From: Sulfobacillus acidophilus DSM 10332
GTDB lineage: Bacteria > Bacillota > Sulfobacillia > Sulfobacillales > Sulfobacillaceae
Assembly (NCBI GenBank): GCA_000237975.1
Contig: CP003179.1
Location: forward strand, 1,984,001 to 2,048,000
DNA: 64,000 nt
Direction: 5' to 3'
Positions 44,642 to 64,000 of this stretch are shown here, in pieces; position 1 is the stretch's first letter; each line of letters begins with the position of its first letter. Position numbers and translations under genes: made by a program. Under the pieces are notes generated by a model. It searched no databases. It saw nothing but the letters and a program-made list of their open reading frames with translations, and was not told where the DNA came from.

Positions 44642-45226
44642 TCAGCTTTCGCGGTTATTTCCAAGATCCAAACGCGAATGCCGATATTGAAACCAGTCCG
44701 GAGCCAGCATGCCGTACACCGCGTGGTCCACGAAACGGTCAAGCAGCCGCTCCGCTTGCCGAATGACGCCTTCTTGGGTAAACCCCAGCCTTTCCGGAAT
44801 GGCCCGACTTTTCCGATTCGTTACCGCCGCTTGAATTTCGACCCGATGTAAATGGTATTCGTTAAACGCGATATCGACCATCGCTTGCACCGCCGCGGTC
44901 ATAATCCCCCGACCTTGATAGGAGGCCCCGAGCCAATAGCCAAGAGCCGTATTCCGGTTATGCCAATCGATTTGATGAAAACCCACCACTCCCGCGAGCT
45001 GTCCTTGATAAAGAATACCGGCTTGAAACCCGTTACTGGCGGCAAATTGACCTAAGGCGGTTTGAATAAACCGCGCGGTATCTTCCACCTGCCGCGTCTG
45101 ATCCACCCAGGGCAGCCACTCCCGTAAATACTCCCGCCCGGAATCAATCAAGTCATAGAGGGCGGGAGCGTCTTGTAATTCGAGCAGTTTGAGCGCAATG
45201 TGATCGTTGACGGGATGCCGAAACAC
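44642..45226 (-). CDS. GNAT acetyltransferase, RimJ/RimL type
   Basis: A 194-residue acetyltransferase read from a GTG at 45226 with GGGAGGGG upstream. LGYWLGASYQGRGIMTAAVQ (acetyl-CoA motif) and NRKSRAIPERLGFTQEGVIR (second motif, NxxSxxxxExLGF) are both complete. It is similar to the protein at 6290-6850 but is not an obvious duplicate. It stands alone next to the MFS fragment. Substrate unknown. Confidence 0.85.
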   Translation of the reverse strand: MFRHPVNDHIALKLLELQDAPALYDLIDSGREYLREWLPWVDQTRQVEDTARFIQTALGQFAASNGFQAGILYQGQLAGVVGFHQIDWHNRNTALGYWLGASYQGRGIMTAAVQAMVDIAFNEYHLHRVEIQAAVTNRKSRAIPERLGFTQEGVIRQAERLLDRFVDHAVYGMLAPDWFQYRHSRLDLGNNRES

Positions 45227-47850: not shown

Positions 47851-48892
47851 AGATCACCTCAGAATATAACGCCGCGTGCTGCCGAAAACTGTCGCGCCAA
47901 GTCGGAACGGGCGAAGCGTCTCTCGCCCGAGTGCTGATGGCCGTGAGCATGGCCGAAGCCAAGGCTTCCGGGTCACTGGACTCGCTGACCGTCAATAAAG
48001 GATGGCGCAAATCGCGGGCGATCCCGGTCGGTGTAGCAACCACCGAAGTCCCTTGATGTAAGGCTTCAACCACCGGCAGCCCAAACCCTTCATAAAACGA
48101 CGGCTCCACTAAAAAGACCGCATGACGGAGATAAGTGGCTAATTCCCGGTCGTCCAGATATCCTCGATAGACGATATCCTCCCGCCGTTTCACCTGATCC
48201 CATAGTGCCTCGGTTTTCCATCCCCGTCCCCCCACTAAAATTAACTGCCATTCCGCATGGGATTGCCGTTGGAAAAGCTCCCAGGCCCGTAAAAGGCCGG
48301 AAAGGTTTTTCCGGGGCTCCATCGTACCGACGAACAATACATAGGGATTTTGAAAGGGCGGCGTGTCGGCTCCGGGCGGCAACCGATCCCCTCCTAAAGG
48401 AATCACCCGGATCCGTTCCGGCGAAAGACGCGGATAGAATTCCAACAAATCCTGCCGCACTTGACTCGACGGCACGATCACCCGAGCGGCGCGTTGAATC
48501 GCCAACGGGACCACACGTTTCAGATAGGCGCGGGTATCATCGGTCACCGACTCGGGATAGCGCCAAAACGCCAGATCGTGAATCGTAACCACCCGCGGCA
48601 TGGATAAACCGGGAGGCACGGTAAAAGCCGGTCCATGAAAAACATCATACGGCTGACGCCGGAGGGCCCAGGGGACCAGTACGGTTTGCCACGGAAGCGG
48701 TCGACGGGCCGGGATAATCACCGGCCTTTCGGGTAAATCGTCGAGTCCCCGAGCATCCATACTCAACGGAATATATGTCATATCCTGCGGTCGGTGGGCT
48801 TGATATCCCCGAAACAGGCCGACGACATATTGCGCAATACCCGCCCGCTGGCTTTGGGTGGCTAATACCCGTACATCTATGGCGACGTTCAC
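47840..48892 (-). CDS. Glycosyltransferase family 4
   Basis: A 350-residue GT-B transferase. The N-terminus is NVAIDVRVLATQSQRAGIAQ with the Gly-rich loop, and the C-terminal half has VLFVGTMEPRKNLSGLLRAW, WQLILVGGRGWKTEALW and VEPSFYEGFGLPVVEALHQG (EX7E motif with both Glu). This is the mannosyl/rhamnosyltransferase type. The GTG at 48892 follows AGGAGG. A second glycosyltransferase gene overlaps its end by 11 bp. Confidence 0.9.
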   Translation of the reverse strand: MNVAIDVRVLATQSQRAGIAQYVVGLFRGYQAHRPQDMTYIPLSMDARGLDDLPERPVIIPARRPLPWQTVLVPWALRRQPYDVFHGPAFTVPPGLSMPRVVTIHDLAFWRYPESVTDDTRAYLKRVVPLAIQRAARVIVPSSQVRQDLLEFYPRLSPERIRVIPLGGDRLPPGADTPPFQNPYVLFVGTMEPRKNLSGLLRAWELFQRQSHAEWQLILVGGRGWKTEALWDQVKRREDIVYRGYLDDRELATYLRHAVFLVEPSFYEGFGLPVVEALHQGTSVVATPTGIARDLRHPLLTVSESSDPEALASAMLTAISTRARDASPVPTWRDSFRQHAALYSEVIYEK

Positions 48893-49032: not shown

Positions 49033-49674
49033 TCACGCTAACCGGTGTCGTAAGCCGTACACCCCCGCCAAAAGAAGACCTGCCACGAGGGGTAAACCCG
49101 CCGCATAGGGTACTTCCGGCGTGTCTCCGATGGGAGTGGTGGCATAGATCACCATCATCTCAAAATACTCCGGAGAAGTGGTGGTGCCGTAAAAATCCGT
49201 GGCCGGAAAGTTTACCACCGCCGTACCGGCCGTTTGGACCGTACCCAGCGCGATGGTTTCCGGTGTCGTCGTAACATTCGGGGTTGGCGTATTATAACCT
49301 AACAACATCACCGTGGCCCCGGGGGCCAAAATGGTAGGGCTCGAAGTCCAGGTGGCGGTATATGTCCCATTGGTCGGCCCGGAAATCGTCATCGACCCAT
49401 TCGTATTCTGAACTAATCCACTGGCTGACGGATCCAAGTTTTGCGGATAGATATCCATGTGGGAGCCGTGACCCGTAATGAAACCCGTGGTTAATAGCTC
49501 CTCACTTATGGCATTCCATGTCCCTGAATTGACGTAAGGTTCTACCTTCTTGACCATCCATTTCGGCAGAGTATTCATTTTGGCAAATGCGGAACCTGCC
49601 CACAGCAATGACAATCCGGTCAATATCAACGGGAGCGCCAGGCGTCCCGATTTTTGGGACCTCATAAAAGCCAT
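49033..49674 (-). CDS. Secreted protein with exosortase-type C-terminal sorting signal (TPEVPYAA)
   Basis: A 213-residue exported protein. Residues 1-30 are a signal peptide (LALPLILTGLSLLWAGSAFA), and the C-terminus has the tripartite layout of exosortase substrates: GDTPEVPYAA (183-192), a hydrophobic helix (193-207) and Arg-His-Arg. The middle domain is a beta-type domain with TATWTSSP, GATVMLLGYNT and PEYFEMMVIY, which is paralogous to the protein at 50459-50965. The start is the ATG at 49674, behind GTGAGGG; the frame extends further without a ribosome site. It is on the opposite strand to the exosortase gene, about 1.3 kb away. Confidence 0.85.
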   Translation of the reverse strand: MAFMRSQKSGRLALPLILTGLSLLWAGSAFAKMNTLPKWMVKKVEPYVNSGTWNAISEELLTTGFITGHGSHMDIYPQNLDPSASGLVQNTNGSMTISGPTNGTYTATWTSSPTILAPGATVMLLGYNTPTPNVTTTPETIALGTVQTAGTAVVNFPATDFYGTTTSPEYFEMMVIYATTPIGDTPEVPYAAGLPLVAGLLLAGVYGLRHRLA

Positions 49675-49796
49675 CCGCCAATCCCTCACATTCTTCGTGA
49701 TTTGAGAACAGGAGTCCCGATTTGGGCCTTCCCTCCCCAAACACTACCCGCGTCCCGCCAGGGTGACAGTACCATCTTCCGTATCACGACGAGGTC

Positions 49797-50264
49797 TTAC
49801 AGCGTCAATCGGGGAGATCGGATGACCCATATTTTCCCTCTAGCACCCTTCAGGCGCATCTCGACGTAGCCGGTCCGATTCCGCCAAAAAGGCGCATACA
49901 CCAAGACGATATATTGCCCGGATACCTCGAATGTCGTCCGGCCATCCGGATTACCGCTCCGACCGACCAACTCCGCCTGGGAGGCCAATTGCCGTATCGA
50001 GGGGGATCCGGACCAGGTTAGCGACAGCAAGTGATGACGTAATTCCACGCCATTAACCGACAAGACCAGGAAATCTCCGATGGCGTTGGGCCGAACCACG
50101 AGTGAAAGAGTCGGCTTCGGCACCGCGGTTTCGACGGGACGGCTAGTGAGGTGCTGTCGCAGCCATATTCCGCAGACGAGCAGCAAAATGATGAGAATAA
50201 ATGCCACCACCCTCCGTCTCCCCGGTTCCCGGAGGACCGGTATATCCGCATTGAGTTTCATCAT
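49797..50264 (-). CDS. Single-pass membrane protein
   Basis: A 155-residue protein with a short cytoplasmic N-terminus, one transmembrane helix (about 20-37, VVAFILIILLLVCGIWL) and an exported beta-rich domain with GDFLVLSVNGVELRHHLLSL, TFEVSGQYIVLVYAPFW and YVEMRLKGARGKIWVI. The ATG follows AAAGGAATTTT. It lies 122 bp upstream of the sorting-signal gene on the same strand and diverges from the second one. It may serve the same pathway, but I recognise no family. Confidence 0.75.
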   Translation of the reverse strand: MMKLNADIPVLREPGRRRVVAFILIILLLVCGIWLRQHLTSRPVETAVPKPTLSLVVRPNAIGDFLVLSVNGVELRHHLLSLTWSGSPSIRQLASQAELVGRSGNPDGRTTFEVSGQYIVLVYAPFWRNRTGYVEMRLKGARGKIWVIRSPRLTL

Positions 50265-50335
50265 AAAATTCCTTTCCGTTCAAACGATTTGATGCCAATA
50301 TATCCTAAACCCGGAGCATCCGTAGTCTCAGCTTT

Positions 50336-50365
50336 ATCTCATAAATGAGACGTCAAATGAGATGC
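50336..50365 (+). repeat. Inverted/direct repeats with ATGAGATG motif in a divergent promoter region
   Basis: ATCTCAT (50336-50342), AA, ATGAGA (50345-50350) form an inverted repeat, followed by ATGAGATGC (50357-50365). The 9-mer ATGAGATGC is repeated at 58302-58310 in the 58.3-kb intergenic region before the riboswitch-controlled gene. It lies between the divergent genes at 50264 and 50459. Confidence 0.45.
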
Positions 50366-50458
50366 TTTAAGGGACTGCGCCTTCCCCAGCCCACTCCTAC
50401 CCTAAAAGAGACGTAATGAAATCCTCTTTAAAAGTTCTTGGGAAGCGAGGCGAAATAA

Positions 50459-50965
50459 ATGAAATGGCTATCACTTGTTGGCATCCTGTCGGTGGTTACA
50501 GGTGCCTTTATGGCCGTACAACCCGTGATGGCGTCGACGGCCGGTACCGACAGCAGTAATGCCTGCGTGGCCACATCAACCGATCCTGCAGATTGCGGTA
50601 ACCTCACGATTCATGTCACGGCAAACGGAGCCACCGCCATCTGGAATTATTCCCCCTTAGTCCCCGGTGACCAGGTTTTTTTGGTCGGCGTACAGGGTCA
50701 TCATGCGGACGATCCTTCCGCACCAATCCTGACGTTGGCTTCAGGCATAGTAACCACCCCCGGACTGGCCGAGGTGTCCTTTACCCCGCCTAGCTCGGGA
50801 TGGAATGCGACGCACCCGGAAGCCTTTGAAATGCATACCGTGACAGACCTTGAATCTCTTCCTTATGGGGAAACCCCCGAAGTTCCGTATGCCGCGGTAT
50901 TGCCAGCCACTGCACTCCTTGCCGTCTTGGGGATCAGCCGACGGCGCCGCAACCTGGTGAAATAA
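50459..50965 (+). CDS. Secreted protein with exosortase-type C-terminal sorting signal (TPEVPYAA)
   Basis: A 168-residue exported protein. A signal peptide (1-25) precedes a beta domain that is paralogous to that of the protein at 49033-49674 (NGATAIWNYSP, GDQVFLVGVQG, SGIVTTPGLAEVSFTP, PEAFEMHTVTD). The C-terminus is GETPEVPYAA (137-146), a hydrophobic helix (147-160) and RRRR (161-164). The ATG follows GCGAGG. It ends 18 bp before the exosortase gene, so the substrate and its enzyme are co-transcribed. Two Cys (36 and 46) may form a disulfide. Confidence 0.88.
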   Translation: MKWLSLVGILSVVTGAFMAVQPVMASTAGTDSSNACVATSTDPADCGNLTIHVTANGATAIWNYSPLVPGDQVFLVGVQGHHADDPSAPILTLASGIVTTPGLAEVSFTPPSSGWNATHPEAFEMHTVTDLESLPYGETPEVPYAAVLPATALLAVLGISRRRRNLVK

Positions 50966-50983
50966 TCTTCTGCGAGGTGTTTT

Positions 50984-52603
50984 ATGGCGCAGTCTATCGC
51001 GCAGCATAGGGGACTCAAGCTTCCGACCAAAATCGGCTTATGGACTCTGTTAAGCGTTTGGCCCATGCTATTCTACGCCCAACCCCTCTGGCAAAATGCG
51101 TTAGCCGATACACCGATAGCGTACCTCATATGGATTCCGATTCTCTCCATGGCTTGGGCCTGGTGGAACTTGGGCACCATTGATACGGACTATACGGACG
51201 ATATCGAGTTGGATCTTCTGGCCGGCGGTATCGCCACCGTGGTTACCGGATTCCTTTTGGCATTTGGGCCCGTACGTTGGCCTTCGACTTTTGTCTACCA
51301 ACATGCGGGTTTGTTGTTGTGGCCCTTTTGGAGTTTGTCATTAGCTTGGATCATATTGGGGTTGGGATCGACTCGTTACCTGTTGGCTCCCCTGTCCTAT
51401 CTTTTTTTGGCCTGGCCTGCCATTTTTGGATGGATCGCCACGATGACCCAGAATATCCTGGTTACTTGGGCGATTGGCGCACTGAACCTATTGGCCGAAC
51501 GAGTGCCCTGGCTCGTTAAGGGTACACCGGTAGGCACCTTTTATGTGCAGCATGGCACCTCTTGGTCCGGCGTGGTAGTTGCTCAAGCCTGTAGCGGAGC
51601 GGATAGTCTTCTCGGCGCCGCCATTTTGTTACCTTTAATCCTCACGGTCTTAAAAGGCCCGCGCTATCGGCTGATGATCATGGTGGTTTTTACCTTAATA
51701 GGCGCCTTAGTCATTAACTGGCTTCGGTTATTCATCATTGTCGCCTCGGCTCATTGGATCGGTGCGAGTTGGACCTTTCGGTACGTTCATCCGCTGCTCG
51801 GCTTCCTGCTATTTGCCGGACTCTCGGCGAGTTTGGTACTATTGGCCGGAAAACTTCGGTTGTCCGTACCCAATACCTGGAATCGCACGTCGTTGCCCGG
51901 TATAACCCGTTCACGTCTCATCGTCAGCACGCTCTTGGCGGCATTACTATTCGCCGCATTAGTTCCGTTTTTGAACCTGCCGCCAGGATATTTCGGTAAA
52001 CCCCTACGGGTGTCTAGCGACCGCTTGACGACCTTGATGCCCCCTCTTCCCGGTTTTACCAAGATCCCTAAATATTACGCCAACGAAAGTAGCCTTTTAG
52101 GACCGGGTAGTGCCACACAGGCTGATTTATATATCACACCCGACGGGGCGCAAGTATTAGCGGAGGTCTGGAGTACGCCCAGTGCGGGTAACCTCGCAAG
52201 TTATGGCTTCCGTAACTGCCTTCTCTACCATGGTGAGAGCATTGTGGCCCAATGGTCCTTCGGCTTGGCTCCTGGGATTGCGGCAACCGCTTATGCCGTT
52301 ACCCTTCCTCCAGAGTCCTATGGGCAAAAGGGCGCGACATACCTGGACGTCGAATGGACCGACGCCATTCACGGAGTTTTTGGAGTGCGCTATCAGCGCT
52401 GGTCGGTGGCGACCTTCCCACTCGCATCCGCTTTATGGCCGCCGACGATCCGGCAACAATCGTTCCATCCCGCCCTCCTCGGCCTCGACGCCATGGTCGC
52501 ACCGCCGACGGTGGGTCATTGGCCCACAACTCTGCTAACCAATCGGACTGACCTGATTCATTTTGCCGACTCCCTGTTTCGCATGGACAGAAAAAATGCA
52601 TGA
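50984..52603 (+). CDS. Exosortase family transpeptidase-like protein with long C-terminal domain
   Basis: A 539-residue membrane protein. The membrane part (about 15-325) carries the exosortase catalytic triad in order: AQACSGADSLLGAAIL (Cys203), NWLRLFIIVASAHW (Arg248) and FRYVHPLLGFLLF (His269). Exosortases cut C-terminal sorting signals and transfer the protein. Beyond the membrane part lies an exported domain of about 200 residues (340-539, PPLPGFTKIPKYYANE ... YLDVEWTDAIHGVFGVRYQR), in the place of the EpsI-like domains fused to some exosortases. The ATG follows GCGAGGTGTTTT. Downstream genes are glycosyltransferases, the usual partners. Confidence 0.88.
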   Translation: MAQSIAQHRGLKLPTKIGLWTLLSVWPMLFYAQPLWQNALADTPIAYLIWIPILSMAWAWWNLGTIDTDYTDDIELDLLAGGIATVVTGFLLAFGPVRWPSTFVYQHAGLLLWPFWSLSLAWIILGLGSTRYLLAPLSYLFLAWPAIFGWIATMTQNILVTWAIGALNLLAERVPWLVKGTPVGTFYVQHGTSWSGVVVAQACSGADSLLGAAILLPLILTVLKGPRYRLMIMVVFTLIGALVINWLRLFIIVASAHWIGASWTFRYVHPLLGFLLFAGLSASLVLLAGKLRLSVPNTWNRTSLPGITRSRLIVSTLLAALLFAALVPFLNLPPGYFGKPLRVSSDRLTTLMPPLPGFTKIPKYYANESSLLGPGSATQADLYITPDGAQVLAEVWSTPSAGNLASYGFRNCLLYHGESIVAQWSFGLAPGIAATAYAVTLPPESYGQKGATYLDVEWTDAIHGVFGVRYQRWSVATFPLASALWPPTIRQQSFHPALLGLDAMVAPPTVGHWPTTLLTNRTDLIHFADSLFRMDRKNA

Positions 52604-52704
52604 GACGCGAATTAGGACCTTTTCCGGTACTGATGTCAAGGGCTATCGGCATTACGGTTAAGACGACGACATGAATCGTTATCTCTCCTTAGGAGGGTCA
52701 AACA

Positions 52705-53895
52705 TTGTCAAATACCGCTCCGCAAAATTCGCACCCTGAAAATCTATCCCTCACCGTGGTGATTCCCGCCAAGAACGAGGCCAAGATGATTCAAGACACG
52801 TTGTTGACAATCAATGACATTTTGTGTCGAAACCATCTGGCGGCAGAAATTATCGTCGTGGATGACGGATCCACCGACAATACGAGTGCTGAGGTTATCC
52901 GTACCGGTACCCTTCTTCAATTCCCGCTTAAAATCGTTCGTCAGACCCGCTCGCAAGGTAAAGGGGCTGCCCTGATGACCGGATTTGCACTGTCTCGGGC
53001 TGATTACGTCGCATTTATCGACGCCGATTTGGAATACCCGGCGGAAGAAATCCCTCGGATGTTGGTCCGCTTGCAAGCCCATCCGCTCGAGGCCTGTGCC
53101 ATCGCCGTACGACAAACCGATACGCGACCAGTCTGGGAACGGATTACGTCCCTCATTGCCCATAAGATCGCCTCGTTATGTTTGCAGGTTCCGGTCCGGG
53201 ATACGCAAGCGGGACTAAAAATGTTCCCGGGCTGGTTTGCCCGACAGGTGCTTTCCACTGCAGAGGAAACAGGGTGGCTTTTTGATTTGGAAGCATTATC
53301 CAAGGCAACGCTTTATCAATTACCGATTATCCAATTCCCGGTCCAACAAACGGCGCGCCGACCACGCCGGGCCCGAGTCTCCGCGATGATTGGTTGCCTG
53401 CCCTCCCTTTGGCGCTTAACCAAAAATCATTGGACCGCCGGTAACCGGGGCCGGCTCTTACGGTTTATCGGCGTCGGCAGTTTCAATACGGTCGTCGATT
53501 TGACCTTGTATTTTTTACTCATATCGCTCTTCCCCCCTCATCATCAGTGGTGGCTCGCCGCCTTCGAATCCTTCGCCTCGTGGAGCATGACCACTCTATT
53601 GAGCCGCCGTCTCCATTCCCGGATTACCTTTGGACGTAATCTGCAACCTACCGGTTTCTATGCGATCACCCTAATCGGTATTCTGGTACAAGTCGGCATG
53701 AGCGCTCTCTTGAGTCATTTGGCGGGAAGTGTGGGGGCCTTTATGGGCAAATTGGGCGGAATTATAATCGCCGCCGGGATAACCTACACCGGGTATTTAT
53801 GGTTGGCCCAGCGATCGGCTCCAGTCGACGACAAACATAACCTGCCCTTTTCACCCGCCCTGCCAATTGATACCCGGATTGAGACTGATATTTAA
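52705..53895 (+). CDS. Glycosyltransferase 2 (DPM1-like) with GtrA domain
   Basis: A 396-residue protein that joins a GT2 domain and a GtrA-like membrane domain. SLTVVIPAKNEAKMIQDTLL, IVVDDGSTDNTS (52-62), YVAFIDADLEYPAEEIP (DXD) and VPVRDTQAGLKMFPGWFARQ match polyprenyl-phosphate sugar transferases; RFIGVGSFNTVVDLTLYFLL begins a four-helix GtrA domain (about 254-375). It probably makes a lipid-linked sugar and helps to flip it. The start is a TTG at 52705 behind AGGAGGGTCAAACA. Confidence 0.88.
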   Translation: MSNTAPQNSHPENLSLTVVIPAKNEAKMIQDTLLTINDILCRNHLAAEIIVVDDGSTDNTSAEVIRTGTLLQFPLKIVRQTRSQGKGAALMTGFALSRADYVAFIDADLEYPAEEIPRMLVRLQAHPLEACAIAVRQTDTRPVWERITSLIAHKIASLCLQVPVRDTQAGLKMFPGWFARQVLSTAEETGWLFDLEALSKATLYQLPIIQFPVQQTARRPRRARVSAMIGCLPSLWRLTKNHWTAGNRGRLLRFIGVGSFNTVVDLTLYFLLISLFPPHHQWWLAAFESFASWSMTTLLSRRLHSRITFGRNLQPTGFYAITLIGILVQVGMSALLSHLAGSVGAFMGKLGGIIIAAGITYTGYLWLAQRSAPVDDKHNLPFSPALPIDTRIETDI

Positions 53896-53951
53896 TCGCG
53901 TCTCGCTTATTCTCACACTATCCCGAACAACGCTACGGGGAGGAACGCCGC

Positions 53952-54398
53952 GTGTTTTCTCGAGAATTATTGGGATACCGTCGAACCGAGGTTAAAAAAC
54001 GTTTGCGGACGATTGAACTCGAACTGACACAGACGCGATTGGCTTTATCGGAAGCCGAAGACCGAATTGCTGAGCTGGAAGATGCCCTGGCAACCGTGAA
54101 TACAACCTCATGGGCTTTGCCGAAAGAGCGGGACACAACCGACGGTGAGGCTATCGAGATCCTCGTCGGCCCGATCGACAGGTTGGGTACTATCGGTGCA
54201 CTTATAGATAGTTTGGAACGATTACCGTTGCTTCGTATCCGTTATCGTCTCTATCAAGACGGGTTTTACCGCGTAAAAGCCACCACCACCAGTCTCAATA
54301 CGGTTTTAGACGGGTTAAGAAATCATGCAGCCGTACATGATATCCAACTTCACGCCGACAGGCTTTATGTGACACCGAAAGGACAAAAACCTGCATGA
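53952..54398 (+). CDS. Small coiled-coil protein
   Basis: A 148-residue soluble protein. The first 47 residues (GYRRTEVKKRLRTIELELTQ, then TRLALSEAEDRIAELEDAL) form a coiled coil like the start of DivIVA-type proteins. The C-terminal part (65-148) has GPIDRLGTIGALIDSLERLP, IRYRLYQDGFYRVKATT and LNTVLDGLRNHAAVHDIQLH, a beta-alpha-beta pattern of unknown function. The GTG at 53952 follows GGGGAGGAACGCCGC. The end overlaps the MshEN-glycosyltransferase gene by 4 bp (ATGA), so it may act as its partner. Confidence 0.72.
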   Translation: MFSRELLGYRRTEVKKRLRTIELELTQTRLALSEAEDRIAELEDALATVNTTSWALPKERDTTDGEAIEILVGPIDRLGTIGALIDSLERLPLLRIRYRLYQDGFYRVKATTTSLNTVLDGLRNHAAVHDIQLHADRLYVTPKGQKPA

Positions 54399-56623
54399 GC
54401 ATCAGAGCTTTTATCCCCGATTTATCGATTCCCTTCGTCAGCCTCAAACCTTATTTGAATACCGAGACCAGCCGTTGGCAGGATCCTGTCGACCCTACCG
54501 TAAGCCGCATTTTCGATTCCGAGTTATCCCGCCAATGGCATATGATCCCCTTCCAATATGCTGAAGGGCGTTATTTTGTTGCCACTTCGCAGCCTGATAC
54601 GTCCCGGCTCAATGCCATTGAACAGATGCTACCGGGGCCGGTAACCTTCTTTCTCTGTTCGGACGACGATCTCCAGGCAACATACGACCGCGTTTTCGGC
54701 TCCCCGATGCTATCGGCTGAGCAACAACTGGAGACCGTTATCCGGAATCAGGGGTCGGTAGACGCTCGGGCCCTCGAAAAAATTAAACGGCAACAAGCCG
54801 AAACCGGCGCCGATCTAGGCCCCTTGTTGACCAGCCACAACCTCATAAACCCGTGGGAACTCGCCGAGGCGTTAGCGGAACAATATCAATTGCCGTTAAT
54901 CAATTTATTGCACTCGACTTCTCCGTTGGCGGATCCGACAACCTGGCAAGCCATGCCGGAATCCTTTTGGCGGGACCATCTCATTGTCCCGCTTGAATTG
55001 ACCTTCCAAGAACTACTGATTGCCACTGCGAAGCCCGAAGACGCGGCTGGCCTAAAAATGTTGGAAACCCATTTTAGGCGCCCGGTGCGGGTATTCGTCA
55101 CCGGTTATCGAGACGTGTTTCACGCCTTTACGCAGCAATTTGGTACGGATCATCTGATGCAGAGCCGCACCGCTTTGCTGACCAGCCAACCTCAGAATAG
55201 CGCTTATCGTCAAGTCTCTACCGGCCAAACCGCCGTTTTGCTCGGTATCCTGCTTTGTCTGGGTCTCGGTCTCGCATTCAACGCGGTCGTCACGGGGATT
55301 GTCATCAGTCTCCTGATACAGATTTTTTACACGGGTTATAACGCATTTCGGCTATGGATGATGTACGAGGCAGCTACCAACCCCCCGGAGGTCAACGTAT
55401 CCACCGGTGAACTGGCCGCGCTCGATCCCAAAACCCTGCCCATTTACACTATTTTAGTGCCGTTATATCGTGAGGCTAACGTATTACCGACGTTGGTCGA
55501 CGCGCTCAAACGCCTCGAATATCCGCCGGACCGTCTCGATGTCAAATTATTATTGGAAGAGGATGACGAGGATACGATTCGTGCGGCGAAGTCGGCCGCG
55601 TTGCCCAATTATATCGAACTGGTGCTTGTGCCGGCTTCCCAACCGCGCACCAAACCCAAGGCCTGCAATTATGGATTGGCGCGTGCCCGCGGTGAATATG
55701 TGGTCATCTACGATGCCGAAGACATTCCGGAACCCGACCAATTATTGAAGGCGGTAGCGGTACTCCGTTCCAGCCCAGCGGAGGTGGTCTGCGTACAGGC
55801 CAAATTATCTTATTATAATGCCTTTCAAAATGTGTTAACCAAATGGTTTACGGTGGAATATGCCACGTGGTTTGATTTGATGTTACCCGGACTTTTTGCC
55901 GCACGCATGCCCATTCCGCTCGGCGGCACCTCCAATCACTTCAAAACAGCGGTATTGCAATCGATGGGCGCTTGGGATCCCTTTAACGTCACGGAAGATG
56001 CAGACTTGGGCATCCGTTTATATAAGGCCGGATATCGCACAGTGATCATGAATTCCACCACATATGAAGAAGCCAATGCGGACTTGGTCAATTGGATTCG
56101 CCAACGATCGCGTTGGATCAAGGGCTACATTCAAACGAGTCTCGTTCACCTCCGGTCGCCCCGGGCATTAAAAAAAGCGTTGGGTTGGCGCGGCGTCATG
56201 GGTTTTTGGGGATTGGTGGTCGGCACACCGCTTACGGTTCTGTTAAATCCTCTCCTTTGGGCCTTAACCTTGTCCTGGTACATCCTTGGTCCTAACTTCT
56301 CCGGCAAAATATTTCCCGGGGTCGTCTATTATGTCGCCATTGCCAACCTCTTTATCGGAAACTTTACGTTTGTTTATGTCAATATGATTAGTTTAGCCAA
56401 ACGGGAAGAATGGTCATTGGTGATACCGGCCCTCTTGTCGCCATTTTACTGGCTATTGATGTCTGTAGCGGCTTGGAAGGGTTTATGGCAACTGGTTTCC
56501 CGTCCATTTTACTGGGAAAAAACCATTCACGGATTGGCCAACAACCCCATCCCGCCAACCCGGGTGGAAGACCGGCGAATCCGGCCGGAGTCGGCGCATG
56601 TGAAAAAGCAGGTGACGTTATAA
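54395..56623 (+). CDS. Processive glycosyltransferase with N-terminal MshEN-type domain
   Basis: A 742-residue protein. Residues 111-134 and 140-163 are two 24-residue copies of the MshEN motif with a 5-residue linker between them, the layout of c-di-GMP-binding MshEN domains (LETVIRNQGSV / LGPLLTSHNLI; the conserved first Arg is Gln and Asp). Two helices (280-325) lead to a GT2 domain (350-580) with LVPLYREANVLPT, YDAEDIPEP (D440), TEDADLGIRLY (533-543) and QRSRWIKG (570-577, QxxRW), as in cellulose and PNAG synthases; four helices follow. The start overlaps the coiled-coil gene by 4 bp. It probably polymerises and exports a polysaccharide. Confidence 0.88.
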   Translation: MSIRAFIPDLSIPFVSLKPYLNTETSRWQDPVDPTVSRIFDSELSRQWHMIPFQYAEGRYFVATSQPDTSRLNAIEQMLPGPVTFFLCSDDDLQATYDRVFGSPMLSAEQQLETVIRNQGSVDARALEKIKRQQAETGADLGPLLTSHNLINPWELAEALAEQYQLPLINLLHSTSPLADPTTWQAMPESFWRDHLIVPLELTFQELLIATAKPEDAAGLKMLETHFRRPVRVFVTGYRDVFHAFTQQFGTDHLMQSRTALLTSQPQNSAYRQVSTGQTAVLLGILLCLGLGLAFNAVVTGIVISLLIQIFYTGYNAFRLWMMYEAATNPPEVNVSTGELAALDPKTLPIYTILVPLYREANVLPTLVDALKRLEYPPDRLDVKLLLEEDDEDTIRAAKSAALPNYIELVLVPASQPRTKPKACNYGLARARGEYVVIYDAEDIPEPDQLLKAVAVLRSSPAEVVCVQAKLSYYNAFQNVLTKWFTVEYATWFDLMLPGLFAARMPIPLGGTSNHFKTAVLQSMGAWDPFNVTEDADLGIRLYKAGYRTVIMNSTTYEEANADLVNWIRQRSRWIKGYIQTSLVHLRSPRALKKALGWRGVMGFWGLVVGTPLTVLLNPLLWALTLSWYILGPNFSGKIFPGVVYYVAIANLFIGNFTFVYVNMISLAKREEWSLVIPALLSPFYWLLMSVAAWKGLWQLVSRPFYWEKTIHGLANNPIPPTRVEDRRIRPESAHVKKQVTL

Positions 56624-58284
56624 TGAGCACAACCAGACACTATTCGTCCATCTCCCGGTCATACCCTGTCGTAACCCGAGTCCCCCGGCCCTACGACCGT
56701 AACGAACAGCGGGAAGCGCTGGGCGCGGGCTTGTTCACCTTTATCCTTTCGTTGGTGGCGGCCGCCGTTTTGGTCTTTAAATACCATACCATGCAAAACG
56801 ACGCGTTAGGGCGGGTGATGGATGCCTACTATGTTATCTATCATCAATTTCATTTGGCCGCAATCGGGTTTGTCTGGAACCCCCTACCAAGCCTTTTGGA
56901 ATTACCCCTCGTAGCTTTTGAACGGTGGTGGCATCCGTTGGTTACCGATGCCTTTGCCGGCAGCATAGTTAGCTCCCTTTTTGCCGGGATCGGCGCATAT
57001 TACCTGATACGCATTATGCAGCACTGGCACATTTCCCGCTGGTTTCGAGGACTTTGGGCACTGATTTATGTCTTAAATCCGATGATATTTTTGTTTGAAC
57101 CCAATGGCATGTCGGACATCATGATGGTCACCACCTTTCTGGCTGCGTTGGACGGGCTCTTACGTTATATTGCTACGGAAAATATCGGGCAACTGGTATC
57201 CAGTTCCATTTGGCTGGGACTAGCATTTCTGAATCGTTATGAGGCGGTCCCGTTTGCTTTATGCATCGGCGTGGCGTGGGATATCGGGATGATCGTGCAT
57301 GGTGTGCCGTGGAAAAAAATCATTGGCCGTACGGCTATTCTTGCTTTGCCCATCACCTATTTGGGATTTCTGTGGATCTTTTTTAACTGGACGATTATGG
57401 GCGATCCTTTTTATTTCGCGAACTCGGAATACTCCAATGCCGCACAAATGAAAACCGGAATTTATAATTTTTGGGTGACAGCCCTGGCAAAACATAGCAT
57501 CCCGGGTACGGCACATATTTTGATCTTTTTCGCTAACCTGTTTCCCCCGTTTATCCCCGCGTTCATACTGGTTGTAGTGGTCGCACTCGTCAAAAAGCTC
57601 GATACCGAAGCATTAATCCTGCTTGCCGCATCAGTCGCAGTCCCGTTATTGCAAGCCGACCTTCTGTTCAAGGGACTTTCGGCCGCCTGGGACCGTTATT
57701 TTATCATGTATATCCCGATGGGCTTCCTGCTTATTTTTTATCTTGTTCACGTCTTAAAGGGACGCCGCTGGCAAACCTGGGTATTGTCCGGGCTGGCCAC
57801 CATCGCCTTATTGGTCGGCGATGCGCAAACGTTGTCGGCGATTCAAAAGCCAGGCACCGGACACGGTTTGCGACCTTTAGTGGCCTACCTGTTACATCCT
57901 AACCGACCGAATTCCGGTGCATTAGCCCGCGCGACCGTTATCGATACCGGGAATACCGCGATGGCAAAGGAAGAAGCCGATTACATTAACCGGCATCCCC
58001 ATATCCGAGTACTGTTGGATACGTTTAATTTCTTTTTCGTCATTCCATACGTCGACCGTCCGAGCCAGGTCGTGATTACCAACGACGCCGATTTCCGCAG
58101 CGTTTTGCAAAACCCCCGTGGCCGGATTACCGACATTTTGGTACCTCAACCGGTCGGCATCTCCCAACTGAATATGGTCAACGTCGTCTACCCCACGTTA
58201 TGGTCCGGAGGTGTCCCTTGGACGAGATTGGTGGCCAGCTTCGGCTCGGATCGCTTGTATCAGGTCCTATCCAACGCTCCTTAA
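56623..58284 (+). CDS. GT-C-like polytopic membrane glycosyltransferase
   Basis: A 553-residue protein with about ten membrane helices and a C-terminal exported domain (about 420-553). After the first helix comes TMQNDALGRVMDAYYVIYHQ, with a D in the first large external loop as in GT-C enzymes (PMT/ArnT family), and YLIRIMQHWHISRWFRGLWA and ILNPMI-type helices follow. It would move a sugar from polyprenyl phosphate to an extracellular acceptor. The ATG overlaps the stop of the preceding gene (TAATG). Similar proteins accompany exosortases in some Gram-positive bacteria, as I recall. Confidence 0.75.
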   Translation: MSTTRHYSSISRSYPVVTRVPRPYDRNEQREALGAGLFTFILSLVAAAVLVFKYHTMQNDALGRVMDAYYVIYHQFHLAAIGFVWNPLPSLLELPLVAFERWWHPLVTDAFAGSIVSSLFAGIGAYYLIRIMQHWHISRWFRGLWALIYVLNPMIFLFEPNGMSDIMMVTTFLAALDGLLRYIATENIGQLVSSSIWLGLAFLNRYEAVPFALCIGVAWDIGMIVHGVPWKKIIGRTAILALPITYLGFLWIFFNWTIMGDPFYFANSEYSNAAQMKTGIYNFWVTALAKHSIPGTAHILIFFANLFPPFIPAFILVVVVALVKKLDTEALILLAASVAVPLLQADLLFKGLSAAWDRYFIMYIPMGFLLIFYLVHVLKGRRWQTWVLSGLATIALLVGDAQTLSAIQKPGTGHGLRPLVAYLLHPNRPNSGALARATVIDTGNTAMAKEEADYINRHPHIRVLLDTFNFFFVIPYVDRPSQVVITNDADFRSVLQNPRGRITDILVPQPVGISQLNMVNVVYPTLWSGGVPWTRLVASFGSDRLYQVLSNAP

Positions 58285-58306
58285 ATCGGCGTTAAAAAAG
58301 AATGAG

Positions 58307-58355
58307 ATGCGTCGGGCCGTGTTATGATGAGCACAAATCTCATCATTCGACGCAT
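58307..58355 (+). repeat. Nested inverted repeats between the GT-C gene and the riboswitch
   Basis: ATGCGTCG (58307-58314) pairs with CGACGCAT (58348-58355), and inside it ATGATGAG (58324-58331) pairs with CTCATCAT (58339-58346). Both are perfect 8-bp repeats. No T run follows, so it is less likely a terminator than a regulator site or a mRNA hairpin. ATGAGATGC at 58302-58310 is shared with the region at 50357-50365. Confidence 0.5.
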
Positions 58356-58390
58356 AGATAACCCTCAGATGAGATATCAAGAAATGGGTT

Positions 58391-58482
58391 GTGGCAGAAC
58401 GAACGATAAAGGCAAACCATGCGAAAGCATGGGACGCAAAGCTAGAGGGGCTTATCGCATCCGCGATTGCCAGCCAGCTGCC
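58391..58482 (+). ncRNA. Cyclic di-GMP-I (GEMM-I) riboswitch
   Basis: All landmark elements of the GEMM-I aptamer are present in order. GGCAG (58393-58397) and CTGCC (58478-58482) form P1; AAAGGCAAACC (58408-58417) is the first conserved strand; CATGC-GAAA-GCATG is a GNRA-capped hairpin; GGGACGCAAAGC (58430-58442) is the second conserved strand; a variable arm follows (AGGGG...); and TTGCCAGCCAG closes the ring. It lies about 90 nt before the start of the secreted glycosidase-like protein gene, so its expression responds to c-di-GMP. Confidence 0.93.
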
Positions 58483-58538
58483 GAAACGGGAACTGGACAA
58501 ACGGGCGGTTCCCCGGTTTCGGGGGGCCGCCCCGTTTC
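58483..58538 (+). promoter_or_regulatory. Riboswitch expression platform: competing hairpins
   Basis: GAAACGGG (58483-58490), directly after P1, can pair with CCCGTTTC (58531-58538). The competing hairpin uses ACGGGCGG (58501-58508) with CCGCCCCGT (58527-58535) and CCCCG/CGGGG inside. The tail is TTCAACTATTCTC, only moderately U-rich, so the switch may act by termination or by exposing the ribosome site (GGGAGG, 58556-58561). Confidence 0.6.
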
Positions 58539-58571
58539 AACTATTCTCTCAACACGGGAGGATGCGGTTGA

Positions 58572-60863
58572 ATGCCTATTCTCAAATACATTGCCACGGC
58601 TTTGCTCATCCCTCTGGTCGCGGCGGTAAGTGCCCCGGTCGACGTCGGCCAAACCACGGCGTCCGATGCCCCATCATCCAGTATCACCGTACCCGTATCA
58701 CGGTCCGATTATGGTATTAATGTCTTCTCCTATGATAGCCAACTGAATGACCCGTCGACCGCACCTGCCCTGATCGGTCTCGGCATGGGCATGCAGCAAT
58801 TTCCCAATGACGTAGAATGGAGTTGGGTCACGAATCAATATCGTTATGGCGGAGAATCACCCGTCTCCCTTAACGGGTGGGGTAATCTGCTAAAACAAAC
58901 TGAAAATACCGGTCTCTATATTTTCGACTATGATGAAAACCCCACATTTTCCGGGGGCGGCTCACCGGCTGATGCCGTCCAACTCACGCAGTATATCTTG
59001 GCCCACCACTTACCGATTACGGCTATCGTCATTGGCGACGAGGAATATGGCCAATGGGATCATTACGCCAATCTCAACCCCTCGTTTTCCGCTACGTATT
59101 ATGCGACCCAAGCCGCTCGCATCGCACAGGCAATTCACGCCGTCGATCCAGCTATGCAAGTTGGCGTGTCCTTTACGTTGAGTCAAGATCCCGCCGGCCT
59201 TTGGTGGGATCAAACGGTACTACGGATGGATGCCCCTTACATTAACTTTTTAAGTGTCCACGACTACCCGAACGGATCCGCGTTAAGTAACGCGGCCTTG
59301 TTATCCGCGTTACCGGGAGAAATTGCCCAATCGATGGATTTTGCCCAGTCGGAAATTTCGGCCAATGTGCCTCCGACTTTACGAAACCGCCTACAGATCT
59401 GGGTAACCGAATTTAACCCCTATCAAGAACCCGGCATTCAGTCGATCGAACCGGTTTATGGCGCCGCCATGGTCGAAAGCGCCATGTTATGGCGTGCTGA
59501 CGGCGCCGCCAAACTCTTTATCTGGAGTTATGATGGGGAACCGCATCTGACGACTTCGCCCTGGTCTTTGGCCACCAATAGTCGCGTTCCGTTCGGGCTT
59601 TATGCACTGGCCGGCGACGGGCAGTCGCCCGAAATCGGGATTAACACCCTGTACCCGTCGGGTGCAGCGTTATCTACCTACATGAACGCCATTGGCAGCG
59701 GTGGACGATTGACGGTTAACGTGACGCCCGACACCGTAATCGGACAAGTCGTCTCCCCCAAAGGAGTTCATGTATTTGCCGTCAACACTTCGGCCGTCTC
59801 GCGGTCAATCGACCAGACGACGTTGCCGCCCGCCTCGCTGACGGTGTTGACCAACCCGGTCCTCTCGCCGGTACCCCCCTCCAACCTGTCGGGTAACCCG
59901 ACCGGGTTCGCATCCTATCAACCGTCGGTGCCCACGGTCAATGCGTTACCGCCCTTGTACCCGGGGGAATCGGTCACGGTAACAGGATCGGGGTTTGGTT
60001 CCGCCGGTCCCAACGCGCGAGTGATACTCGACCAAAACGGCATCAGCTACGGAGCCTCGGGTGATGCGTATTCCGTGAATATTATACGGTGGTCCAATAC
60101 CGCTATCACCTTTACGGTACCGGACGGCACCTCCGGCCCTCCGTTAGTGCCCGGCAACGCCTCGTTAACGGTTGAAACGGATGCCCAGTTGGTCTCGACT
60201 TCTCTTCCCATCTCGATAACCGCCCCCCCTGTGCTAAATGCCTCCATCGAACCGGGCGCCACAGTCTATCCGGGGGAAATTCTTACGGTTACCGGTAGCG
60301 GATTTGGTACCGAACAAGGATCAGGTTTCGTCATGCTCAGCCAAAATTCCATAAGCTATGGCGCTCCGTTCGACGCCTATAAGCTTCGTATCATCGCTTG
60401 GACACCAACCGCCGTATCGTTCCAAGTACCGAACGGTTGGTCAGGGCCTTCGCTATCGCCGGGTCTGGCGACTCTGGACATCGTGTCCGAAACCGGCCTC
60501 AAATCCGCGCCCATCTCTTTGATGGTTACCACTCCCCCGCAAATCGCAATAACCCTCGAACCTTCCGACCATGTGCTTCCAGGCGAATGGCTGACAATTT
60601 ACGGTTCTAATTTTGGAAGCAGCCAAGGAAGCGGGTACGTCACCATCACGCAAAACGGAGTGAGCTATGGTGCCCCAGGCGATTGGTACGGCCTTACTGT
60701 TGGGGCATGGTCCGATACCGCGGTCACATTTCAAGTGCCTTTACCGGGAATGTCAAATACCGGTCATCTCGAACCGGGGTTACAGTCGGGACCGGCTACC
60801 CTGTCTCTGGTTACCGGCGACGGATTGGTCAGTGTTCCTCTGACCATTACGGTCGGAAATTAG
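58572..60863 (+). CDS. Secreted protein: glycosidase-like barrel plus three IPT/TIG repeats
   Basis: A 763-residue exported protein. A signal peptide (about 1-30, ATALLIPLVAAVSAPVD) is followed by a region to about 400 that resembles TIM-barrel glycoside hydrolases (VSVHDYPNG-type segment, IWVTEFNPYQEPG, KLFIWSYDGEPH). Then come three IPT/TIG immunoglobulin-like repeats that start YPGESVTVTGSGFGS, YPGEILTVTGSGFGT and LPGEWLTIYGSNFGS (near 465, 568 and 660). Translation starts at ATG 58572, 10 nt after GGGAGG. A c-di-GMP riboswitch precedes it. It may bind or trim the polysaccharide made by the neighbouring genes. It lacks the TPEVPYAA tail. Confidence 0.85.
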   Translation: MPILKYIATALLIPLVAAVSAPVDVGQTTASDAPSSSITVPVSRSDYGINVFSYDSQLNDPSTAPALIGLGMGMQQFPNDVEWSWVTNQYRYGGESPVSLNGWGNLLKQTENTGLYIFDYDENPTFSGGGSPADAVQLTQYILAHHLPITAIVIGDEEYGQWDHYANLNPSFSATYYATQAARIAQAIHAVDPAMQVGVSFTLSQDPAGLWWDQTVLRMDAPYINFLSVHDYPNGSALSNAALLSALPGEIAQSMDFAQSEISANVPPTLRNRLQIWVTEFNPYQEPGIQSIEPVYGAAMVESAMLWRADGAAKLFIWSYDGEPHLTTSPWSLATNSRVPFGLYALAGDGQSPEIGINTLYPSGAALSTYMNAIGSGGRLTVNVTPDTVIGQVVSPKGVHVFAVNTSAVSRSIDQTTLPPASLTVLTNPVLSPVPPSNLSGNPTGFASYQPSVPTVNALPPLYPGESVTVTGSGFGSAGPNARVILDQNGISYGASGDAYSVNIIRWSNTAITFTVPDGTSGPPLVPGNASLTVETDAQLVSTSLPISITAPPVLNASIEPGATVYPGEILTVTGSGFGTEQGSGFVMLSQNSISYGAPFDAYKLRIIAWTPTAVSFQVPNGWSGPSLSPGLATLDIVSETGLKSAPISLMVTTPPQIAITLEPSDHVLPGEWLTIYGSNFGSSQGSGYVTITQNGVSYGAPGDWYGLTVGAWSDTAVTFQVPLPGMSNTGHLEPGLQSGPATLSLVTGDGLVSVPLTITVGN

Positions 60864-61596
60864 TCAAGCGACGCTCCTGATTGCATCCGATAACCCTCGG
60901 CTTCGCGGCCGAGGGAGATTTTTCATGATTATGTCGACCAGGTACTTGGCGACTTCGCTTATCCGCATACATTGCCTGATCGGCTCGATGAATCAAGGCC
61001 TCCGGTAATTCGCCGGCATGCCACTCTGCTACCCCGACCGAAAAAGCCAGTTCTAACGCGGTTTCCGCCTTAAGACGTTCCGCGAAGGCTGCCGCCGCCT
61101 CGTACGAAGCACACGGCAACACGATGAGGAATTCATCACCGCCCCACCGGCAAATAAAATCCGAGTCTCGTATCTTCGCGCGCCAAAGGGTTGCCGCTTG
61201 GCGTAACAGGCGGTCACCCGCCGCATGACCGTGCTGATCGTTAACCAACTTAAAGCCGTCAAGGTCCAGAAAGACCACCGACAACGGTTGGTTATAACGT
61301 GTCGCCGATTTGATAGTCTGTTGCAAGCGGATAAAGCCGTAACGCCGCGTCCAGATGCCCGTTACGTCATCGGTCAATATGCCGGATAGCCATCCTTCCC
61401 GTGAGAGATCCTCAAAATAATGATGGGTCAAATGCCCGACCAACTCGCGTAATCGGAAACGGATCATTTCCTCCCCGGCTCCCGTCGAGTGAGCAATATC
61501 CGCTATTGGCGTGCCTAAGAGGAGTAAATCGATAATAACCCGCTCCGAGTGATAATCATGCCACCGATGTGGCCCCTGACCCCCGATGATGATCAT
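60847..61596 (-). CDS. Diguanylate cyclase
   Basis: A 249-residue enzyme that makes c-di-GMP from two GTP. The GGDEF domain (about 105-230) has the intact active site RWGGDEFLIVLP (GGDEF at 152-156), DLDGFKLVNDQHGHAAGD before it, and the inhibitory I-site RDSD (143-146), five residues upstream, so product feedback is expected. The N-terminal 70 residues are helical with a possible helix-turn-helix (TPIADIAHSTGAGEEMIRF). It lies next to a c-di-GMP riboswitch and an MshEN-glycosyltransferase. Its C-terminus overlaps the convergent gene by 17 bp and the terminator after it. Confidence 0.88.
   Translation of the reverse strand: MIIIGGQGPHRWHDYHSERVIIDLLLLGTPIADIAHSTGAGEEMIRFRLRELVGHLTHHYFEDLSREGWLSGILTDDVTGIWTRRYGFIRLQQTIKSATRYNQPLSVVFLDLDGFKLVNDQHGHAAGDRLLRQAATLWRAKIRDSDFICRWGGDEFLIVLPCASYEAAAAFAERLKAETALELAFSVGVAEWHAGELPEALIHRADQAMYADKRSRQVPGRHNHEKSPSAAKPRVIGCNQERRLTNFRP
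60894..60923 (+). terminator. Rho-independent terminator of the riboswitch-controlled gene
   Basis: CCCTCGGC (60894-60901), loop TTCGCG, GCCGAGGG (60908-60915), then AGATTTTT. The perfect 8-bp stem and T run end the secreted-protein transcript 30 bp after its stop. The hairpin lies inside the 3' part of the opposite-strand cyclase gene. Confidence 0.85.
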
Positions 61597-62044: not shown

Positions 62045-63922
62045 TCACGATTCCGTTAAAAAGAACAGGGCGTCGGTCAGTCGTTCTATCGCCCTTCGAT
62101 GGTTTCGAAAATAGGTGGCACGGGATACGTGAAATTGTTCGGCTAGGGATTCATGCGATCCCGCCCGTTCCACATAGTACCGATATAAAAGTTCGCGGCC
62201 CTCCGGCCAATCCCCAAGGTCAGCCGAATGAAGAGCATCCAATATCCGCACCTGAAAAATCTCGGCCGAGGTAAGCCCCCATGCCTGGCCCGCTAACTGA
62301 TATAAAGCCGTTTCACTTAAGGAACCGGTATCGCGAATGACGTGGAGTGCTTGCTGCACCCAATCCACCAGCCGGGTTTTGGGCGGCAGGTCGCTAAGAC
62401 GGGGCTTGACGACATCTCGCGCCCAGGCGAGGTACCCGGCCGATAAGTCGAGGTGCCAGACTATGCGCCCCATTTCGATGCGTTCGTCGCGAAATCCCAT
62501 CCGACGCAAATAGGCCGATAGGATTTCCCGGAGTCCGGCCGGCGTGTCGATTGCAATCTCCCACCGAACGAACGCCGTCTGAGAAAATAACGCCACCGCC
62601 ATACGAAAGATATGGGGTAACGCCCACCACTCGGATAGTTCGATATCCCGAATCGTCAGACAACGCGAGGTCAAATTATGCTCCACGGTAATCCGCACCG
62701 CAAAGTCGCCGTCGTTACCGTCGATTACATACTCCCTCGGCCCGGCTTTGCCGTCTTTCGGATGCCACCGACCGACTCGGCAATCCGCCTCATGGACAGG
62801 AAACAGCAGGTCCTGCACCAGCGCCGTGATTTGAGCCTCATAGAGTGCCGCTCGCTCCCCGCCACTTTCCTGGATCAGGAGATTAAGCCATCGCCGACGC
62901 CACCACTCCCGCGACCAAGGCCGACTAAGGCCCAAGCCTTCTTGAATCGGAGCCCGCACTTCCGGTGCGATTTGATAAATCCCCCCCGCATGCTCTATCA
63001 CGAGCGGAAACGTCATCAATTCATCCCAATGTTTTCGCACCCGGTGGGCATCCAACACCCCCGAAAGCAGCCGTCGATCAAACCACGGTACTAAACTGGC
63101 CACCGCAATCAACGTATCGACCGTGTCATGGCCCCACCCGGCGCGCCAACGGAGCCGTCGGGAGCCCCGATGCAACATCTGTTCAATCAGAAATAAAGGC
63201 AGATGCCGACCAATGCGCTTTTGCACCAACGGGTCACTCGTTTTCAACCAAACTAAGCTATGGACCAACGTTTGTAGTACTTTCGGGTTGCCCTGGGACA
63301 GTTTTGTTACGAGCGCGATATCCTCGGATTCCCGAATTCCCGCATTTCGGGCGACTTGCTCGATCTGTGGGCCGTCTAGCGGCTGAATAGTCACCGTCGA
63401 TACCCGAGAAAGCCAGTCCGCATCCCCTACCCAATGTCCGCGGACGCGATCGGATCCGGCCAATACCCAGACAATGCGGGGACTCATCAGGGGAAATACC
63501 TGTTCTCGCAACCAGCGGTCTACCGAATACCATTGGTCATAGTCGTCAAGCGCCCATATCAAGCCGCGACGGTCGGCCACTTGATTCATTTCCCGCACCA
63601 TTTCTAAGACCGTTGCCGTCGATACCGGTTCTTTCCGCAATGTCTCTAAAACCCAGCGGGCCACCCCGGCGGGAGACATCTCAACCGCATGGGCCGGCGT
63701 ATAAAGGAAATCCGCTTCCTCATGCTGCGCCCACTCTAATAACTGGCGCACGTAAAATGTTTTGCCCGATCCGGGCCCACCTGCCAGATAGACGACACGG
63801 GGTAACGCGTGACCGTTTACCGCTTCGGCCGCCCACGGAGTGGGAACCCCCCACGGATCCGCGCTCATTAACCCTGGCCGCGTCCCCGATACCACCAAGC
63901 GCCCCATCTCTAACCGCTCCAT
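62045..63922 (-). CDS. STAND-like P-loop ATPase with C-terminal helix-turn-helix
   Basis: A 625-residue protein. VVYLAGGPGSGKTFYVRQLL (Walker A, 48-55) and GLIWALDDYDQWYSVDRWL (Walker B, about 125) are followed by VWVLAGSDRVRGHW, QPLDGPQIEQVARNAGI and LSQGNPKVLQTLVHSLVWL, the STAND/AAA pattern of signal-transduction ATPases. The C-terminal 45 residues have SLAEQFHVSRATYFRNHRRA, a helix-turn-helix. It may regulate transcription in response to a signal. The ATG at 63922 follows AAGGAGGTACCG. It lies upstream of the diguanylate cyclase gene on the same strand, 448 bp away, and could control the exosortase locus, which is inference. Confidence 0.75.
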   Translation of the reverse strand: MERLEMGRLVVSGTRPGLMSADPWGVPTPWAAEAVNGHALPRVVYLAGGPGSGKTFYVRQLLEWAQHEEADFLYTPAHAVEMSPAGVARWVLETLRKEPVSTATVLEMVREMNQVADRRGLIWALDDYDQWYSVDRWLREQVFPLMSPRIVWVLAGSDRVRGHWVGDADWLSRVSTVTIQPLDGPQIEQVARNAGIRESEDIALVTKLSQGNPKVLQTLVHSLVWLKTSDPLVQKRIGRHLPLFLIEQMLHRGSRRLRWRAGWGHDTVDTLIAVASLVPWFDRRLLSGVLDAHRVRKHWDELMTFPLVIEHAGGIYQIAPEVRAPIQEGLGLSRPWSREWWRRRWLNLLIQESGGERAALYEAQITALVQDLLFPVHEADCRVGRWHPKDGKAGPREYVIDGNDGDFAVRITVEHNLTSRCLTIRDIELSEWWALPHIFRMAVALFSQTAFVRWEIAIDTPAGLREILSAYLRRMGFRDERIEMGRIVWHLDLSAGYLAWARDVVKPRLSDLPPKTRLVDWVQQALHVIRDTGSLSETALYQLAGQAWGLTSAEIFQVRILDALHSADLGDWPEGRELLYRYYVERAGSHESLAEQFHVSRATYFRNHRRAIERLTDALFFLTES

Positions 63923-64000
63923 CGGTACCTCCTTCCAAACCGTCCGTATGTGCGACGACGGCATTGGAACCCGATACATGCCGAATACCCCACAAAGATC

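Follow-up and report, generated by a model that had tools for sequence, protein, structure and literature searches.

Exosortase systems have been described mainly in Gram-negative bacteria, and to our knowledge the partner to which their substrates become attached is not yet settled. We report here the analysis of a 64,000-nucleotide stretch of the chromosome (3,472,898 bases) of Sulfobacillus acidophilus DSM 10332 (G000:C1:1984001-2048000, called the window below), which carries an exosortase gene beside genes for glycan synthesis and, downstream of these, a cyclic di-GMP (c-di-GMP) riboswitch in front of a gene for a secreted glycosidase-like protein. An earlier note, made from the letters alone, had described an exosortase and polysaccharide locus of a monoderm acidophile in which c-di-GMP from a local cyclase would control synthesis, expression and sorting. 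Each part that the note had listed is present where it had been placed, and family scans (Pfam, NCBIfam and Rfam) bear this out. The reading that we prefer, with moderate confidence, is an exosortase/polysaccharide locus together with a c-di-GMP-gated matrix hydrolase.

Comparison with described systems

The PEP-CTERM/EpsH system (Haft 2006, PMC1569441) resembles the window system in several ways: its exosortase belongs to the EpsH family and has Cys/Arg/His, a number of secreted proteins that are not alike in other respects carry a tripartite C-terminal tail, exopolysaccharide genes adjoin, and signal and enzyme have a common phylogenetic profile. The window system differs in its Gram-positive host, in a tail that reads LPEVP(W/Y)AA rather than PEP and has no NCBIfam signal match, in scores far under the cut-offs of all named exosortase subfamilies, and in the fusion of the exosortase to a C-terminal domain unmatched in Pfam. 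XrtG, which occurs in Gram-positives with the TIGR03111 glycosyltransferase, is likewise an exosortase-family protein paired with a processive family 2 glycosyltransferase (GT2); here, however, the XrtG model reaches only 15 bits against a cut-off of 103 (E value 0.016), the glycosyltransferase carries an MshEN domain, and a sorting signal is identifiable. NfrB/DgcJ of E. coli (PMC8669469) also combines a processive GT2 with MshEN, an exopolysaccharide and a dedicated diguanylate cyclase, but it has no exosortase, the domain order is reversed (MshEN is N-terminal in the window protein), and the MshEN motif is degenerate here. Lastly, Cd1 of C. difficile (PMC9262584) has, like the window, a c-di-GMP-I aptamer followed by a terminator with competition for the P1 strand; its targets are flagellar genes and not a secreted glycosidase-like protein, and the direction of the window switch is inferred from sequence.

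A comparison of bioleaching acidophiles placed a PEP-CTERM exosortase system only in Leptospirillum ferriphilum (PMC5418355), and our literature search, whose coverage left out most subscription journals, found no published description of the present exosortase system. The earlier note knew of no described system with this combination; the pairing of an MshEN-glycosyltransferase with a dedicated cyclase is not new, because NfrB/DgcJ is known (PMC8669469). What stays new is a lineage-specific exosortase of a Gram-positive host that has a sorting signal of its own and is linked to a defined set of glycan genes.

The exosortase and its sorting signal

The exosortase gene (50984..52603, plus strand) encodes a protein with several transmembrane (TM) segments that matches the EpsH family of Pfam (PF09721, E value 6e-13) with 49.1 bits against a cut-off of 25.7. 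Residues C203, R248 and H269 do not vary among 25 orthologues, the most distant at 27% identity, which together with the family match bears out the exosortase with Cys/Arg/His that had been proposed. None of the named NCBIfam exosortase subfamilies was reached, the best being XrtA with 39 bits against a cut-off of 208. The AlphaFold model (predicted local distance difference test, pLDDT, 84) consists of an N-terminal multi-TM part and a separate, fused C-terminal beta domain. This domain had no Pfam match in any of the 25 members examined and gave weak Foldseek matches of LpqN/PsbP-like type (best E value 0.07); an EpsI/DUF3485 identity considered for it gained no support from these searches. 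The same exosortase occurs in S. thermotolerans Kr1 and S. harzensis, among other relatives, in keeping with the monoderm acidophile host that had been supposed.

Two secreted proteins with a common C-terminal tail are encoded beside the exosortase: substrate A (49033..49740, minus strand), with the tail GDTPEVPYAAGLP...RHR (tail profile match, E value 6e-12), and substrate B (50459..50965, plus strand), with the tail GETPEVPYAAVLP...RRRR (E value 4.5e-12), whose gene ends 18 bp upstream of the exosortase gene. The tail consists of G-Q-[LT]-P-E-V-P-[WY]-A-A-x-L-P, then a TM stretch and an Arg-rich end. Most exosortases of relatives have a secreted tail-bearing protein nearby, and the consensus of these tails is GQLPEVPWAAxLPL...RR. 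When the whole genome was searched with the tail profile, the two proteins seen earlier were joined by four further copies unlinked to the locus, and the bodies of the six are mostly unlike one another. Nine tailed proteins were compared with the NCBIfam signal models and none scored above cut-off (best E value 0.036).

Across 154 genomes of the class, 24 had both tail and exosortase, 11 the exosortase only, 4 the tail only and 115 neither (p = 8e-16, relatedness ignored). Tails adjoining exosortases went into the profile. This caution is answered by another family of the same class, f33, whose genomes contributed no tails to the profile: in two of them (G095 and G098) it matched less than 5 kb from the exosortase, on the same contigs. 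Weighing against a dedicated signal are two exosortase-positive genomes (G036 and G037) with no tail detected, three tail-positive relatives in the family without a detected exosortase (draft genomes), and the fact that Fisher tests of co-occurrence, here and below, were computed without regard to relatedness. By these sequence comparisons the exosortase system is specific to its lineage and has a predicted sorting signal of its own.

The exosortase would recognise this dedicated C-terminal signal on about six secreted proteins, two of them encoded beside it, would cleave them at the membrane face and, by analogy with other exosortases, would transfer them to an envelope acceptor. It might instead only cleave the tailed proteins and release them into the medium, without envelope attachment. 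The family scans of the window identified no acceptor gene, and attachment is assumed by analogy, which leaves room for such release; the constant co-occurrence of the exosortase with synthases of lipid-linked sugar and of polymer is what one would expect if the proteins are transferred to a glycan or depend on one, and we regard release alone as unlikely. The monoderm version, which has one enzyme, a compact glycan locus and six substrates that can be identified, offers a simpler setting for the question of attachment.

Glycan synthesis genes

Substrate B and the exosortase open a single rightward run that continues with GT2-GtrA, coiled-coil, MshEN-GT2 and GT-C genes (all on the plus strand), with short gaps or overlaps between them, a layout consistent with one transcript from substrate B to GT-C. 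The GT2-GtrA protein (52705..53895) matches PF00535 and PF04138, a GT2 and a GtrA/DPMS TM domain of the polyprenyl-phosphate-sugar synthase type, and agrees with the DPM1-like/GtrA transferase named earlier. Family matches of the coiled-coil protein (53952..54398) were all sub-threshold; its orthologues adjoin the MshEN-GT2 gene in four relatives (G022, G028, G033 and G041) and in f33. The synthase itself (54395..56623), previously called MshEN-type and cellulose-synthase-like, indeed matches Pfam models for both domains, MshEN with 74.9 bits against a cut-off of 23.1 (E value 5e-21), and its GT2 signatures DAED, TED and QRSRW are intact and invariant. The predicted GT-C-like membrane glycosyltransferase (56623..58284) is present, with orthologues in the loci of relatives at 31-44% identity, but its assignment is weak: PMT_2 was matched below cut-off (E value 0.004) and the LA_3751 family with an E value of 2e-5. 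Its start has been re-set and is probably near 56623, not at 56410. In the mechanism that we propose, the GT2-GtrA protein would make a lipid-linked sugar that the GT-C protein would use outside, and the processive GT2 would make a polymer, giving rise to a surface polysaccharide.

The c-di-GMP motif of MshEN comprises two 24-residue RLG...Q stretches joined by a 5-residue linker (PMC5013675). The window protein keeps the 24-5-24 spacing but reads QLE...Q and DLG...Q, such that the Arg of both motifs is lost (to Q and D) and the Gly of the first is replaced by Glu. It misses even the relaxed motif of PMC5013675, and the NCBIfam MshEN motif scored 19 bits on it against a cut-off of 38. Of the MshEN substitutions tested in NfrB, G491L was the one with the greatest effect (PMC8669469). 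Both halves still read R-x-G in each of the four f33 orthologues and in several others. Since the motif is intact in distant orthologues and decayed here, c-di-GMP input to the synthase is probably ancestral and has probably decayed in the window species, in which the control of synthesis that the earlier note had claimed is doubtful.

The genome encodes a second MshEN-GT2 synthase (G000:C1:674738-676555; L159:6639-8570), whose MshEN motif is better preserved and which sits in a stretch with several transposase-like open reading frames (ORFs).

The riboswitch and the barrel-TIG gene

The GT-C gene is followed, after a gap of 117 bases, by a c-di-GMP-I riboswitch aptamer (58402..58486), an expression platform (58487..58571) and the barrel-TIG gene (58572..60863), all on the plus strand. 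By E value the top Rfam cmscan match was c-di-GMP-I-GGC (RF03167), with 68.5 bits; the canonical model, RF01051, gave more bits, 76.4 against a gathering score of 35 (E value 4e-15). The aptamer has G20 and A47 in Vc2 numbering. The variant-ligand class RF03167 was rejected, the window having an A where the consensus of that model has a G (the A47 position) and scoring higher in bits with RF01051. Because of this score and of G20 and A47, c-di-GMP is the likely ligand, and the GEMM-I riboswitch of the earlier note is upheld.

The aptamer stands directly 5' of the barrel gene in 19 leaders from 18 genomes, and barrel orthologues without it lie at contig ends or are fragmented, G036 excepted. 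We consider it very likely that c-di-GMP gates one secreted glycosidase-like protein. The riboswitch lies 3' of the exosortase/GT run and precedes neither the exosortase nor the glycosyltransferase genes; its control of an exosortase operon was rejected on the gene order in the window and in relatives. The proposed c-di-GMP control of expression would thus apply to the barrel gene and not to the run.

The barrel-TIG protein is secreted and carries three TIG/IPT domains recognised by Pfam, as the barrel-IPT protein of the earlier prediction should. Its TIM-barrel model (pLDDT 75) matched GH51, GH79 and GH44 enzymes in Foldseek with E values as low as 1e-11, and 12 orthologues all keep E157 and E280, two glutamates that occupy the positions expected in clan GH-A. 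An Asp or Ser, not the usual Asn of clan GH-A, precedes the acid/base Glu, and the sequence-only Pfam match of the barrel is sub-threshold; both speak against an enzyme of this clan. On balance, the reading that fits best is a secreted matrix hydrolase.

Downstream of the aptamer, leaders carry a strong hairpin, and in several relatives T5-T7 tracts accompany it. The top of the hairpin is complementary to the 3' P1 strand, with z below -1.9 in 9 of 17 leaders; in the window the upper part is complementary to the P1 strand CCGAAACGGGA. Hairpin, T tracts and this complementarity are what one would look for in an OFF switch that works by termination, for which Cd1 is the precedent in the c-di-GMP-I class (PMC9262584). 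Less favourable to an OFF switch, the window hairpin has only TTT after it, and about half of the leaders show no significant P1/terminator pairing. It is likely that c-di-GMP turns the barrel gene off in this way. The glycosidase would be encoded on a transcript of its own that starts with the riboswitch. When c-di-GMP is high, the aptamer P1 would be held, the terminator would form and the glycosidase would be off; when it is low, the 3' P1 strand would pair with the terminator top, the glycosidase would be made, and the matrix would be trimmed or released.

Alternatively, c-di-GMP could raise the amount of the barrel protein, which would bind or remodel the matrix as the biofilm grows. The TIG domains and the missing canonical Asn would fit a binder, and the class has ON members, for example the cGAMP-binding pilM riboswitch (PMC9262584). 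The complementarity of the 3' P1 strand to the terminator top is OFF geometry in about half of the leaders, and an ON switch seems to us somewhat unlikely. With an OFF switch, the preferred reading can be taken further: an undescribed class of Gram-positive exosortase, with an LPEVPxA signal, would attach surface proteins to the polysaccharide made by the locus, and c-di-GMP would set the life-time of this glycan-protein matrix through a dedicated secreted glycosidase. We offer this extended form tentatively. In biomining, an application of Sulfobacillus, the formation of matrix on minerals is important, and gating of a secreted glycosidase by c-di-GMP would, if true, give a testable handle on attachment and release.

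Several other aptamers were seen. Those before divergent barrel homologues in G015, G020 and G026 (L044, L032 and L033) have A at the G20 position (AGAGCAAA), a change associated with cGAMP-type selectivity, and a ligand shift inside one orthologous barrel group is possible. Two kinds of target in other relatives support the theme of the barrel gene: an aptamer in G041 precedes a GH42-like protein (just over cut-off), and in G004 and G022 (L102 and L103) a c-di-GMP-I riboswitch lies 5' of a gene for an EAL phosphodiesterase, which may make a feedback loop. In G036 and G037 (L096 and L097) such a riboswitch lies about 600 bases 5' of a gene for a large protein that presumably belongs near the FapA/DUF342 family. 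Riboswitches in G034 and G040 (L099 and L100) precede proteins with a GH18-like LDIEP motif, of which the one scanned had no Pfam match. The second c-di-GMP-I aptamer of the window genome (G000:C1:876266-876353; L092; 69.5 bits) precedes a membrane protein with a LuxR-type helix-turn-helix, followed by two ABC transporter genes.

Conservation and neighbouring c-di-GMP enzymes

The counts for the long exosortase and the MshEN-GT2 synthase in 61 genomes were 21/1/1/38 (both, either one alone, neither; Fisher p = 4e-14, shared ancestry uncorrected), and those for exosortase and glycosidase 19/3/2/37 (p = 9e-11, relatedness ignored). Relatives of the same family often have the exosortase, MshEN-GT2, GT-C, GT2-GtrA, barrel and c-di-GMP enzyme genes together, with order and strand shuffled; the comparison of gene order that had been suggested as a check therefore found the genes conserved together, though rearranged, in Sulfobacillus relatives. 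In f33 a core of exosortase, MshEN-GT2, coiled coil, GT2-GtrA, GT-C and STAND ATPase occurs in varied combinations without the riboswitch. Since the core reaches beyond the range of the riboswitch, the latter looks like a later addition to the locus.

The exosortase/polysaccharide module and the c-di-GMP elements might be mere neighbours, the glycosidase transcript and the cyclase serving other polysaccharides. This would suit G016 and G029, where about 190 kb separate the exosortase from the synthase and glycosidase genes, and the several exosortase genomes without a glycosidase (G022, G028 and G041). The co-occurrence of exosortase and glycosidase, and their common neighbourhood in many genomes, make it quite unlikely.

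The diguanylate cyclase gene (60847..61596, minus strand) is convergent to the barrel-TIG gene, beside which it had been predicted. Its product matches Pfam GGDEF (E value 3e-35) and has the signature RWGGDEF, an intact RxxD I-site five residues before it and a helix-turn-helix-like N terminus. In 14 of 24 loci a GGDEF or GGDEF-EAL gene lay no more than 6 kb from the exosortase, where about 0.04-0.06 per locus would be expected from genome density; the window cyclase, 8 kb away, falls outside this count. Of the earlier interpretation, one part is supported: an exosortase/polysaccharide locus in a Gram-positive lineage, conserved in relatives and with c-di-GMP enzymes repeatedly beside it.

The neighbouring enzymes, the MshEN motif intact in distant orthologues and the canonical aptamer within the locus also favour the joint scheme of the earlier note, in which c-di-GMP from the local cyclase would control the synthase through MshEN, expression through the riboswitch, and protein sorting. 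The aptamer lies 5' of the barrel gene only, however, the window MshEN has lost both Arg and one Gly of the motif, a corresponding kind of change (G491L) being the strongest of those tested in NfrB (PMC8669469), and no link from c-di-GMP to the exosortase or its substrates was found, so that control of sorting is unsupported. We think joint control unlikely to hold.

Other features of the window

A STAND-type AAA ATPase with an apparent C-terminal helix-turn-helix (62045..63979, minus strand; Pfam AAA_22, E value 9e-9) is part of the conserved neighbourhood, with orthologues in exosortase loci even in f33, and is a candidate regulator of the locus. Between the two substrate genes, an ORF (49797..50264, minus strand) for a small single-TM protein has no family match and no relative in sister loci. 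A pair of glycosyltransferase genes at 46924-48892 was rejected as part of the locus, having no conserved partner in the loci of relatives. Further upstream, positions 45373-46800 encode a secreted-looking protein of 475 amino acids with four imperfect repeats (YLGxSxxTLxxDxAxGxSLAAI...), and two adjoining ORFs at 43602-44851 resemble a broken AAA ATPase of the transposition or secretion type.

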